This document shows, one piece after another, positions 880 to 7,752 of a stretch of DNA of 64,000 bases (within the stretch, counting starts at the first letter, position 1; each line of letters opens with the position of its first letter). Source of the stretch: a virus. The stretch is taken from IMG/VR virus record IMGVR_UViG_3300033571_013388, positions 1 through 64,000 of that record; one strand, given 5' to 3'. Position numbers and translations under genes: made by a program. The notes under the pieces are model-generated. The model was not told where the DNA came from, made no database searches, and saw nothing but the letters and a program-made list of their open reading frames with translations.

Positions 880-966
880 ATGAACACAGTAAGCAACGGA
901 TGTGGATGTGGCAAACCAAAGCCTACAAGCACAACCACAACTAACCCCCCAACACCTAGCAAATAA
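880..966 (+). CDS. Cys-rich 28-residue peptide
   Basis: A plus-strand ORF of 28 codons runs from ATG at 880 to TAA at 964-966. It has an A-rich stretch just before the start, and a strong terminator begins 24 bases after the stop. The peptide has a central CGCGKPKP segment followed by a Thr/Asn/Pro tail (TSTTTTNPPTPSK). The isolated, terminated arrangement suggests a real gene. The Cys-x-Cys element recalls the CNCK start of the 114-residue membrane protein near 49.9 kb and the Cys-rich tails of the proteins at 5801 and 11139. Function is unknown; a metal-binding or disulfide-bonded peptide is only one possibility. Confidence 0.5.
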   Translation: MNTVSNGCGCGKPKPTSTTTTNPPTPSK

Positions 967-989
967 ATGTTGAGGCTACCAAAAAATTA

Positions 990-1022
990 CCCCCAATAAA
1001 GCGATTTACTGGGGGTTTTTAT
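990..1022. terminator. Bidirectional terminator
   Basis: A stem CCCCCA/TGGGGG with a further TAAA/TTTA pairing is followed by TTTTTATTTT on the plus strand. On the minus strand it is followed by TAATTTTTT. It can end both the 28-residue peptide transcript and the leftward tmRNA transcript. Confidence 0.8.
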
Positions 1023-1066
1023 TTTATATCCCGTGGCGTATTTATTGGACATAAATCTGGTATGAG

Positions 1067-1421
1067 TGGAGATAATGGGAATCGAACCCATGTGTTGAAT
1101 ATTCTTCAAAGACTTTCTACATGTTTATCTTCTTTTTCTAATGAAGCCAAATATCATGATTATTCGTGAAGGAAATCATGATACCCTAATGGACTACCAT
1201 CATGTCGTGGAACATACCACGATGAAGTGAATTATCACTATCAGCTATATTAGGCTACAGCAAGCTCTCCAGCGAAACTGCATGCAGCTTCGTTAAGGAA
1301 ATTTTCGGATACAACAAAATCGTTGCCGTTTAAAAAGTTTAATAGCTAGTTTAAAGTGCTTCCATTTAGCACTACATGCTTACCAATTACGACTATACTC
1401 AGTCAATACCTTTATATCCCC
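1067..1421 (-). ncRNA. ssrA: tmRNA (trans-translation RNA)
   Basis: The 355-base minus-strand RNA has tRNA-like ends: GGGGATA at the 5' end pairs with TATCTCC at the 3' end, leaving A as discriminator, and a canonical T arm ATGGG-TTCGATT-CCCAT precedes it. CCA is not encoded. Between them is a tag reading frame (1327 down to the TAA at 1250) of 25 codons, starting at a GGC resume codon (GNDFVV...) and ending GELAVA. Stem-loops follow the tag, including CGTGG/CCACG and a ten-pair TATCATGATT/AATCATGATA. tmRNA rescues stalled ribosomes and adds a degradation tag. It has its own promoter at 1491-1522 and lies directly downstream of a ClpP gene. Phage-borne tmRNAs are known but uncommon. Confidence 0.9.
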
Positions 1422-1490
1422 ATAAATTAAAGAACTTGTAATATAAATATGTGGCCTAATAAAAAAGACCACATATTTTTATTGTTAATG

Positions 1491-1522
1491 CAAAGGTACT
1501 AAATTATATTTAAAAATACAAA
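1491..1522 (-). promoter_or_regulatory. Promoter for the tmRNA
   Basis: On the minus strand TTTG is followed after 20 bases by TACCTTTG, an excellent Bacteroidota promoter. It points at the tmRNA about 70 bases away and sits just behind the clpP stop codon, so tmRNA is transcribed independently of clpP. A hairpin (ATATGTGG/CCACATAT, about 1448-1477) lies in the leader between the promoter and the mature 5' end. Confidence 0.8.
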
Positions 1523-1533
1523 CACTTTACCAA

Positions 1534-2229
1534 TTATTTTTTATTTTTATTTAAAATAATGTTATCTACAATACCATAAGCTAATGCTTCATCAGAATTT
1601 AACCATTTATCACGACTAGCATCTTCCATTACCTGTTTTGGGTCTTTGTTTGTACATTTCCCAAGAAGGTCAAAAAGAATTTCATTATATTTTTCAGCTT
1701 CAGCTAAGCTAATACGAATATCTTGAATGTTACCTTCCGCACCACTAGAAACTTGGTGTAGCATAACTCTACTAAAACGCAAACTGTAACGTTTACCTTT
1801 GGTACCAGAACCTAATAAAATACTACCCATGCTAGCAGCCATACCTGTGTTTATAGTTACGATATCTGAAGATACATAATCTATCACATCAACAATACTG
1901 AGCCCAGATTTTACAGAACCACCAGGTGAATCTATGTGCAATACAATATCTTTGGTCTCAATATTATCTAAGAACATAAGCTGTGCTTGAACAACGGTAC
2001 TCATTCTATCGTTAACAGGTCCCGCCAACCATATAATACGGTCCATCATCATTCTAGAAAAAATATCAATTTGTGTAGCACGCATTTCTCTTTCCTCTAA
2101 AATATATGGTGTCAAAGAAGCGTTAGTACCATAAAGTTTTTCTTGAAGTTGTTCCCAATAATGTATTTGTAAACTACTAACACCCATATGCTTTACAGCA
2201 TATTCTCTAAATTCATTCATTATATTCAT
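1534..2229 (-). CDS. clpP: ClpP-like serine protease
   Basis: This is a ClpP-family peptidase (231 aa, slightly longer than the usual ~195-205), with all catalytic residues visible: Ser133 in GMAASMGS, His158 in RVMLHQ and Asp207 in ASRDKW. The oxyanion-side SPGGSV is at 101-106. About 40 residues precede the conserved core, so the N terminus, where ClpP docks its Clp ATPase, is unlike host ClpP. No unfoldase gene is seen in the window, so it would have to use host ClpX/ClpC or act alone. It overlaps the upstream small gene by four bases (ATGA), indicating translational coupling. The tmRNA lies 113 bases downstream. A role as prohead protease, as in some other phages, is possible but not supported by position. 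Confidence 0.92.
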   Translation of the reverse strand: MNIMNEFREYAVKHMGVSSLQIHYWEQLQEKLYGTNASLTPYILEEREMRATQIDIFSRMMMDRIIWLAGPVNDRMSTVVQAQLMFLDNIETKDIVLHIDSPGGSVKSGLSIVDVIDYVSSDIVTINTGMAASMGSILLGSGTKGKRYSLRFSRVMLHQVSSGAEGNIQDIRISLAEAEKYNEILFDLLGKCTNKDPKQVMEDASRDKWLNSDEALAYGIVDNIILNKNKK

Positions 2230-2495
2230 AAGGCTTCTCCATTTTTATAAGTTACATTCTCACCATTAACAAGTTCAAATTCGTATTTAGATAAAGTTTC
2301 AAGTTTATCATCAGCTTCAGTTAACATACTTAGAGCTTCATCAGCATTTTTATAAAAATCTCCTGTAGAATGGTCACCAATGCCAACAGAATGATGTGAT
2401 AATAAGTGTAGTGTTAATAATGCTTTTCTTCTTTGGGCCTCAAGTTGGGTCCTCAACATGTCGATTAATAATTTTTTCATTTTATATATTTTCAT
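2226..2495 (-). CDS. Small helical hypothetical protein (89 aa)
   Basis: No family is recognised. The sequence is mainly helical, with a basic amphipathic N-terminal helix (about residues 4-35) rich in Arg/Lys and Leu, a central HHSVGIGDHSTGD turn and an acidic second helix. The stop overlaps the clpP start by four bases and its start overlaps the preceding gene's end, so it is part of the leftward operon driven from 3206-3236. An alternative start exists at the second Met (residue 6). Confidence 0.55.
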   Translation of the reverse strand: MKIYKMKKLLIDMLRTQLEAQRRKALLTLHLLSHHSVGIGDHSTGDFYKNADEALSMLTEADDKLETLSKYEFELVNGENVTYKNGEAL

Positions 2496-2739
2496 AATTT
2501 GTTATAAAAACTGGTGTAAATTCACCAAACCAAGCACCTACAATATTAAACTCGTAATATTCAACAGCTTCTTCATATGTCATACCATCTCTGTTGATTA
2601 ACGTGTCTAATATTTTTTCAACGCTATAAGCAACGACAGGGCCAAGGTTTATTCTCTCGGCCATGCCTATTATTGCTTCATCAAACCCATCACAAATCAA
2701 AGCTTCTGGGTTTATTTCTTCTATTTGTTCTATGTTCAT
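2482..2739 (-). CDS. Conserved phage hypothetical protein (85 aa)
   Basis: This resembles a small domain often seen in phage genomes, with the pattern DGFDEAIIGMAER ... VVAYSVEKILDTLI ... DGMTYEEAVEYYEFNI ... GEFTPVFI. The consecutive elements read as an alpha/beta domain of unknown role; there is no catalytic signature. It starts one base after the upstream gene's stop and overlaps the downstream gene by 14 bases, so it is co-translated in the clpP operon. Confidence 0.7.
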   Translation of the reverse strand: MNIEQIEEINPEALICDGFDEAIIGMAERINLGPVVAYSVEKILDTLINRDGMTYEEAVEYYEFNIVGAWFGEFTPVFITNYENI

Positions 2740-3243: not shown

Positions 3244-4218
3244 TTAAAATTTTGTTTTTAATTTTTCTAGAACATCTCTTGTTTCATCATCAATTTTTTT
3301 TGGAATGTTTACACCCAGCGTTATTATCATATCACCCCGATTACTACCTTTAAATTCAGCCATTCCTTTACCAATAACCTTTAAATTAGTATCCACTTGA
3401 CTAAATTCTGGTATATTGACCCTGATTCTGCTACCATCAATAGTTTCAACTTCAACTTTATCACCCAAAACTAATTGTGGGTAACTAAGATTTAACTTTA
3501 TTTTTAAGTTGTTACCATCTCTAATGAATTTATGGTGTGGTAATTCATTTATAATGATGTATAAATCACCATGCCTACCACTTTTAATCGCATGTCCTTT
3601 TCCACCCATTATAAAGGTAGCACCATCTAAAACACCATAAGGAACATTTATTTCTACTGTTTCATCAACTAAGTTAACACCATCACCATTACAAACATCG
3701 CATTTATTTTTATATGTTTGGCCAGAGCCGTTACAATCTGGACATTCAATTGCTTGTCTAATATAACCAATGGGTGTATTAAAGGTTTGAACCAAAATCC
3801 CACTACCGTTACAAGTTGAACAGGTAATAATATCGGTACCGCCATGACCATCGCATGACGAACAAATATCATTTCTTTTAAATTTATATGTTTTTTTAAC
3901 ACCAGAAAATATTTCTTCCAACGTAAGTTTTACGTTTAGTTTAATACTCTCCCCTACTCTAATAGGTCTTTGTCGGCCTGTATTATTAAAACCAAAACCA
4001 GAAAAACGTTCGGCATTATCATACCTATTTTTCTTTTCAGGGTCTGATAATGTTTCATAAGCTTCTGATACTTGTTTAAAATTTTCTTCAGCTTCTGAGT
4101 TATTTGGGTTTTTATCTGGATGATAAAGTTTGGCAAGATTTCTATACGCTTTTTTAATATCATCAGAAGAAGATTCTTTTGAGACCCCTAATATTTCATA
4201 ATAATTTTTTTTTGACAT
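3244..4218 (-). CDS. dnaJ: DnaJ-like co-chaperone
   Basis: This is a type I DnaJ (Hsp40) co-chaperone of 324 aa. It has a J domain with the HPD motif at 33-35, a short glycine/phenylalanine linker (about 72-80) and a four-repeat zinc region (CSSCDGHG 119, CSTCNGSG 133, CPDCNGSG 159, CDVCNGDG 173). The C-terminal substrate-binding domains follow ([23 protein letters not shown]). It stimulates ATP hydrolysis by DnaK and delivers unfolded clients. No DnaK is visible here, so it probably works with host DnaK, for example in virion protein folding or replication. The G/F linker is shorter than in canonical bacterial DnaJ. Its own promoter lies at 4238-4269. Confidence 0.95.
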
Positions 4219-4237: not shown

Positions 4238-4269
4238 CAAAAGTACTTAAATTTATTGTAAAAACCAAA
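4238..4269 (-). promoter_or_regulatory. Promoter for dnaJ
   Basis: On the minus strand TTTG, 20 bases, TACTTTTG, about 20 bases upstream of the dnaJ ATG. It occupies the short divergent spacer between dnaJ and the plus-strand gene at 4277. Confidence 0.75.
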
Positions 4270-6675: not shown

Positions 6676-7752
6676 TTAAACTGTTATAACAGAGTAACGT
6701 TCTGAGTTAATAACTTCCAACATCATAGACATTGGAGTTAAGTCTTTACCACCTAACAGGTTAGTAAGCAAAGATGGGCTAAAACCAGATACCAATGCAA
6801 CACCATTTTTATCAAAGTGAACTGGGAAGTTATCGCTTTTGGCTTGAATGTTCCAGTAAACAATTTTAGGCATGTTATACCCAGCTTCAGCATACATCTT
6901 TTCAAACATTTGCTGAGCAGAAAGCCCAAAGTTTCCACGTGTTCCAGAATTGAACTCCATGTCTGACATAATCAGAATCATTGTTGGCATTTCTTCCGCA
7001 GGTACGTTAGAAGATTTAGCTTTTTGAAGTATCAAATTGAACACAGCCTCAACGTTGGTTGACATATCCCATTCAGCCCTTGACAACTGACTGAATCTTT
7101 CTTGCAAATTACCGTTAAGGATTTGCAGTTTAGGGTTGTTTGAGAAAGTAACAAACGCATCCTTGAAAGGGCCAACATTACGTTCAGAAATATATAAACC
7201 CAATGAGATTGCAACATCCATACATGTAACGTTAGGATTATTCCCAGCTGGACATGACATAGAACCAGATACGTCAACTACTGGCAAGAATCTTTCTTTA
7301 TTACCCTCAAGGTAATTTGGAAGAGCATTCCACTGTGTGTTAGCTCCAGATTTGTCACCAAATCTTAAGTTTTTAACAATGTCGTATGGATATACGGCAC
7401 CAGCGTTAATTTTAGCTTCACCTTTGTTCACGCTCTCCAAGTAAGCAGCAAACCTTTCTTTATCGTGTTTTGTGAACGCTTTCATCAAGTCACTCATAGC
7501 CTTAGAAGGCAGTTTAGAATATTGAATAGCTGACCACTCATTAGCACACATCAATTGCTCAACGGTGTTAGAGTTTTCAACAAGCAACTTACGGTACTCT
7601 TTTGGAGACAAACCCATGTGTTGTCTAACAGCAGCAGCCCATATTTTCTTTTGACGATTTGACACATTTGGACGTGGCATCCATTTAGCCACCAAAGAAC
7701 CAGTCATTATTTTTTCATTCAATAATGATTTCAATTTTAATTTATTTGTCAT
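6676..7752 (-). CDS. C-terminal half of a split Ro60/TROVE-type protein with vWA domain
   Basis: Residues 20-120 (SLVAKWMPRP ... VRQHMGLSPKEYRKLL ... MCANEWSAIQYSKLPSKAM ... HDKERFAAYL) match the second half of the helical-repeat region of DUF2828/TROVE-like proteins. A von Willebrand A domain follows with an intact MIDAS (DVSGSMS at 160-166) and a later IMSDMEF. Such proteins are Ro60-related RNA-binding rings that bind Y RNAs and misfolded RNAs. The first ~160 residues of the family are missing and are found at 8746-9237, with a GIY-YIG endonuclease between. The N-terminal 15 residues (MTNKLKLKSLLNEKI) include the new start. It begins two bases after the 72-aa ORF, so translation may be coupled. 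Confidence 0.8.
   Translation of the reverse strand: MTNKLKLKSLLNEKIMTGSLVAKWMPRPNVSNRQKKIWAAAVRQHMGLSPKEYRKLLVENSNTVEQLMCANEWSAIQYSKLPSKAMSDLMKAFTKHDKERFAAYLESVNKGEAKINAGAVYPYDIVKNLRFGDKSGANTQWNALPNYLEGNKERFLPVVDVSGSMSCPAGNNPNVTCMDVAISLGLYISERNVGPFKDAFVTFSNNPKLQILNGNLQERFSQLSRAEWDMSTNVEAVFNLILQKAKSSNVPAEEMPTMILIMSDMEFNSGTRGNFGLSAQQMFEKMYAEAGYNMPKIVYWNIQAKSDNFPVHFDKNGVALVSGFSPSLLTNLLGGKDLTPMSMMLEVINSERYSVITV

Follow-up and report, generated by a model that had tools for sequence, protein, structure and literature searches.

tmRNA genes have been described in a number of bacteriophages. Three papers report them in 402 of 18,146 phage genomes, including Melnitz (PMC9004378), in mycobacteriophages and Bacillus phage G (PMC4131195), and in the phage Mar_Mega_1 (PMC9723777). 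For huge phages, the occurrence of tmRNA together with SmpB has already been stated (PMC7162821). The phage tmRNAs have usually been noted singly, with their purpose left open; in the clade described here, the tmRNA is retained throughout beside a ClpP gene. The ssrA gene itself is shared with the earlier cases, but the accessible sections of the same three papers (PMC9004378, PMC4131195, PMC9723777) contain no link to ClpP, SmpB or ClpC and no clade-conserved tag. The Lak phages of Prevotella resemble our large relatives in carrying tmRNA, SmpB and ClpP in one genome. However, their tmRNA lies about 55-60 kb from ClpP and its tag is short (DDEIDFRMAA), unlike the clade of the window. The moraphages (PMC12619734) infect Bacteroidota, are large, and encode DnaJ/DnaK together with a Clp ATP-binding subunit; the text of that paper mentions neither tmRNA nor SmpB. 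Among open-licence papers, we found none that names a phage ClpP or describes the ClpP-tmRNA linkage, the long conserved tag or the four-part set, although such absence is weak evidence.

The locus lies in a 64,000-nucleotide stretch of viral DNA (the window), which is part of a record that is itself an 82.5-kb fragment. The features around the tmRNA are listed in Table 1. The first-pass annotation had proposed a complete tmRNA, and the covariance model bore this out. The RF00023 match covered positions 1064-1421 (-) and the full model (1-374), scoring 69.3 bits (E=6.6e-25), where the gathering score is 47. The tRNA-like domain, the G3.U70 pair, PK1 and the one-piece architecture are common to this gene and the chromosomal tmRNAs of Bacteroidota, whereas its score of 69 bits is below the roughly 97-167 bits of the host genes. 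A clade profile gave E=3.9e-91 with nhmmer, the relatives in the profile including an identical copy. No close DNA relative of the window tmRNA was found among annotated phage records.

Table 1. Features of the tmRNA-ClpP region, with positions in the window.
Feature	Position	Strand	Basis or remark
Intrinsic terminator after tmRNA	989..1016	-	12-bp stem, then T-rich tail
One-piece tmRNA (ssrA) gene, CCA not encoded	1066..1421	-	ARAGORN and Rfam RF00023
Tag frame, 25 codons and TAA, GNDFVVSENFLNEAACSFAGELAVA, resume codon GGC	1250..1327	-	ARAGORN coding part 95-172
Putative Bacteroidota-type promoter TTTG-N20-TACCTTTG for tmRNA	1491..1522	-	Pattern match within the 112-nt gap
ClpP, 231 aa	1534..2229	-	PF00574 E=1.5e-56; alignments with PDB ClpPs
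Small ORF, 89 aa, phrog_1811, overlapping ClpP start	2226..2495	-	Upstream of ClpP in only 11/65 loci with enough flank
Small ORF, 85 aa, phrog_13182	2482..2739	-	Upstream of ClpP in 50/65 loci
Putative phage metallopeptidase	2740..3174	-	PF18894 E=6e-08; in 60/65 loci
DnaJ-type co-chaperone	3244..4218	-	J-domain, Cys-rich and C-terminal domains; in 54/65 loci
Promoter-like site, Bacteroidota-type, ahead of dnaJ	4238..4269	-	Pattern only

The relatives were 80 IMG/VR loci obtained by a ClpP search. Several of the contigs are near-duplicates, and 51 distinct tmRNA sequences, including that of the window, were compared. The acceptor stem of the window tmRNA is GGGGATA/TATCTCC, containing the alanine-identity pair G3.U70, which was retained in 49 of the 51. 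All seven acceptor pairs were formed in 48, with compensatory changes among several pair types at pairs 4-7. In a 19-sequence alignment the core pairs of PK1, the T-stem and H2 were also upheld, those of the T-stem in 19/19. A chance tmRNA-like match is ruled out by the acceptor pairing and the RF00023 matches in the window and its relatives, and the element at 1066-1421 (-) is a genuine one-piece tmRNA.

The tag read by ARAGORN from this gene is GNDFVVSENFLNEAACSFAGELAVA followed by a stop, and it ends in ...SENFLNEAACSFAGELAVA. The long tag and its AVA end, pointed out before, were found to be features of the clade. Every one of the 51 distinct tmRNAs has an open tag frame starting from one fixed resume position, with 25 codons in 36 genes, 26 in 14 and 27 in one. 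The C-termini are mostly AVA (26), ALA (7) or AFA (6), with a few others; AYA, AVV and ALV also occur. The resume codon is GAC in 39 cases, GGC in nine, GGA in two and GCA in one; thus the phage tmRNAs mostly use GAC, and only some share the GGN codon of the Bacteroidota hosts. Among the 34 gapless 25-codon tags, the tag frame had a pN/pS of 0.38; the two alternative frames gave 0.94 and 1.01. The residues V6, S7, E8, N9 and E21 were invariant in these tags, several of them across synonymous changes, and the conserved core reads SENFLxEA. The phage tag is under purifying selection at the amino-acid level. Disruption of the frame in relatives had been named as a possible objection; a broken or drifting frame is ruled out by the 51/51 open frames and the low pN/pS. 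The odd tags that ARAGORN reported for L010, L012, L036, L041, L064 and L068 are mis-calls, since the clade alignment leads to the same 25-residue frame.

In comparison, all 26 host-type tmRNAs from Bacteroidota genomes encode tags of 8-9 residues ending in [LM]AA, such as GESNYAMAA and GETNYALAA. The phage tag, with 25-27 residues, its own core and an AVA, ALA or AFA end, is therefore a conserved peptide distinct from that of the host, which it exceeds by about 16 residues. Long tags on a similar plan were decoded by eye in two other large phages, LR756504.1 (DNVNSFEQSILNELFAPVEMAVAA) and, from a Bacteroidetes MAG, a 254-kb contig (GNTTFWSLVNETVNTPVTEELLAA). Outside the clade, the long tags of huge phages end in AVAA or LLAA. 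Two ClpP-bearing records (G022 and G044) have a short host-like tag, and their tmRNA is away from ClpP. A 508-kb virus record (G095:C1:59955-60348, L312) has a tmRNA that may encode an even longer tag, with the frame GNVITNEVGSLSDILSVLAKSKTTATQVEELEIA by eye.

The tmRNA lies downstream of ClpP, separated by 112 nt (1422-1533). The gap contains the pattern TTTG-N20-TACCTTTG, which we take to be that of Bacteroidota primary-sigma promoters. The same promoter type was present within 250 nt upstream of the tmRNA in 47 of 52 loci, against 2.5 expected from shuffled sequence. Because of this promoter in the gap and the terminator behind the gene, the window tmRNA is probably a transcription unit of its own, in line with the separate promoter suggested in the first-pass annotation. 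Across the whole window, the pattern was found 13 times against a mean of 7.9 in shuffles, an enrichment that is not clear. The site ahead of dnaJ is a possible promoter of a dnaJ...clpP operon. Two smaller elements were also seen here. The hairpin ATATGTGG...CCACATAT at 1437-1480 (-) stands between the promoter and the 5' end of the tmRNA, where leader processing is possible. On the opposite strand, a tiny ORF, MNTVSNGCGCGKPKPTSTTTTNPPTPSK, at 881-967 (+), is followed by a hairpin common to the tmRNA terminator.

The catalytic residues of the window ClpP, earlier described as intact, were located by alignment with solved ClpPs as the triad Ser133/His158/Asp207, which was invariant in a five-sequence phage alignment. 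The protein scored below the NCBIfam equivalog cut-offs, with 227 against 361 bits for NF011091, the best model, and 181 against 309 bits for TIGR00493. Given the family match and the triad, we classify it by sequence as a divergent ClpP homologue. The nearest cellular ClpPs were nearly all from Bacteroidota. Together with the promoter type, this indicates Bacteroidota hosts, in agreement with the host assignment made before.

The adjacency of the two genes recurred among the relatives. In 67 of the 80 loci, the tmRNA profile detected a tmRNA on the ClpP strand, 51-1957 nt (median 398) downstream of the ClpP gene. RF00023 alone, matched over its full length, exceeded the gathering score in 41 of 50 ClpP-bearing records, G022 and G044 among them. 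The pairing, which the first-pass annotation had regarded as an oddity, is instead typical of this clade. Gene order was conserved as DnaJ, metallopeptidase, 85-aa ORF, ClpP and tmRNA, and dnaJ and the metallopeptidase gene were as tightly linked to ClpP as the tmRNA was. This conserved order implies that synteny as such, besides a functional tie, may keep ClpP and tmRNA together, and the linkage could be ancestral.

SmpB is the essential partner of tmRNA and was missing from the first-pass annotation; eight relatives encode it on the contig that carries their ClpP and tmRNA (G003, G016, G024, G029, G031, G040, G087 and G090). G087 and G090 were reached through an SmpB search, the others through the ClpP search. 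The ClpP of G003 is 87% identical to that of the window, and the tag of G087 differs from the window tag by one residue. The tmRNA of G029 scored 44.4 bits with RF00023, just below the cut-off, and has the same tag. The SmpB of G040 was above the NCBIfam equivalog cut-offs (NF003843, 184 against 130; TIGR00086, 180 against 119). A ClpC-type ATPase is encoded as well in four of these genomes, G016, G024, G029 and G040 (233-369 kb), so that SmpB, ClpP, tmRNA and ATPase are all present. The ATPase of G040 has two AAA modules, ClpC as its best PDB match, and MGF (xGF) at the position of the ClpP-docking loop. No Pfam Clp_N domain was detected in this protein, and its N-terminal region looks shortened or divergent. 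The ClpC-type ATPases did not reach the NCBIfam equivalog cut-offs for ClpA and ClpB. The AAA_2 model, whose range includes ClpX, detected no separate ClpX in the large relatives. Since the ATPase is ClpC-like and ClpX was not detected, ClpXP, named earlier as the degradation pathway, is unlikely to be the protease of a phage-encoded route.

On the 82.5-kb record of the window itself, a search for SmpB and a Clp ATPase found neither, so the full set for this phage is deduced from its relatives. Partial sets were also observed. G034 (345 kb) and G028 have ClpP and ClpC, and lack both SmpB and tmRNA. The nearest named phage, LR745206.1 (634,780 bases; L002, L083, L087), has a ClpP 63% identical to that of the window, SmpB and a ClpC-type ATPase; no full RF00023 match was found across the whole record, and ARAGORN found no tmRNA near its ClpP. 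Its tmRNA may have diverged strongly, or its SmpB may have no phage tmRNA as partner. These partial sets show that the parts are not obligately coupled. In another virus record (G099:C1:169015-169370, L311), a tmRNA with the tag DDTTTYRMAA was found near SmpB, and no ClpP was found.

Taken together, these results make it fairly probable, in our judgment, that the phage encodes a trans-translation module with a remodelled tag, linked to the phage ClpP, and that the tag is probably served by phage ClpCP and not by host ClpXP. The computed parts of this reading are the tmRNA structure, the tag frame and its selection, the promoter, the linkage, the ClpP triad and the joint presence of SmpB and ClpC among the large relatives. 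The occurrence of tagging, the identity of the protease that recognises the tag and any gain for the phage are inferences. During infection, the tmRNA would be transcribed from its own host-sigma-type promoter and, through G3.U70, charged with alanine. With SmpB, the phage's own in the eight relatives and otherwise that of the host, it would enter ribosomes stalled on broken mRNAs, where the nascent chains would receive the phage tag of 25-27 residues. The tagged proteins would most likely be degraded by a Clp protease containing the phage ClpP and driven by the ClpC-type ATPase of the largest relatives. The SENFLxEA core and the AVA, ALA or AFA end in place of the host [LM]AA suggest that the tag is probably read by phage ClpCP or an adaptor over host ClpXP. 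Such a reading by the phage's own ClpCP would be the most attractive step. The earlier suggestion that host ClpX reads the tag differently is likewise plausible. We propose more tentatively an orthogonal pathway, in which the phage tmRNA-SmpB adds a long degron that host ClpXP would read poorly and phage ClpC-ClpP well, so that the virus would take over turnover after ribosome rescue.

Other explanations deserve weighing against the same data. The phage tmRNA, with SmpB, might only add ribosome rescue capacity while phage and host nucleases cut mRNAs, with host ClpXP or Lon degrading the products and ClpP acting independently in a proteostasis cluster. The tags do retain small hydrophobic C-termini, which Clp proteases generally accept, the transcription signals of tmRNA and ClpP are separate, and the cluster holds other proteostasis genes (DnaJ and the metallopeptidase). 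Phages with a tmRNA and no known Clp link also exist (PMC9004378). However, a tag about 16 residues longer than that of the host, with its own amino-acid selection, and the ClpC of the largest relatives would both be left unexplained, and we consider simple added capacity unlikely. Still less probable is a protective or diverting tag, by which rescued chains would become poor substrates of host ClpXP or carry a non-degradation signal, so that truncated phage proteins would be spared or host Clp would not be burdened. Replacement of the host [LM]AA end by AVA, ALA, AFA, AYA, AVV or ALV in most genes could be understood in this way, as engineered LVA, AAV and ASV variants of the E. coli tag slow degradation. 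The linked ClpP with its intact triad argues against it, as do the AVAA and LLAA ends of the long tags in other huge phages, which are still degron-like.

The ClpP might also be a head-maturation protease whose place beside the tmRNA is incidental, as the PHROGs label of its best families, 'head maturation protease', would suggest. We consider this very improbable. A separate T4-type (S77) prohead protease gene was found in six large relatives (G016, G019, G024, G029, G034 and G040), which argues against a head role for ClpP. In addition, the protein is full-length and ClpP-like, its best NCBIfam model is ClpP, DnaJ lies alongside, and the NF045542 cut-off was missed (68.7 against 120 bits). 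The S77 protease of these six relatives partly fits the earlier description of the phage as T4-like.

Returning to the phage-encoded module, the tmRNA beside ClpP, together with SmpB and a protease motor in the largest relatives, suggests that the virus could operate a tag-and-destroy pathway of its own. In this clade of very large Bacteroidota viruses, a non-host tag is under selection, and the largest members add SmpB and a ClpC-type ATPase. Whether a virus rewrites the degradation tag and supplies the protease that reads it thus becomes a directly testable question. If true, the tag would add a new degron of the ssrA type, which might be orthogonal to host ClpXP and useful as a tool.

Two further observations concern the surroundings of the cluster. 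A tRNA with a CUA anticodon ('Pyl' by ARAGORN), often near tRNA-Cys, was present in L008, L010, L013, L016, L017, L032, L033, L046, L057, L058 and other loci. These are possible TAG-suppressor tRNAs, and some members of the clade may thus be recoded. If host stop codons were suppressed, this would itself make work for tmRNA. TAG recoding was not indicated in the window, where the standard ORFs are long and TAG is the stop in 2 of 29 large ORFs. A DUF7788/DUF2828 protein (phrog_850, labelled RNA-binding) is encoded at 6676-7752 (-) and is conserved close to the ClpP and tmRNA genes of most relatives; it is possibly a TROVE/Ro60-like RNA quality-control protein.
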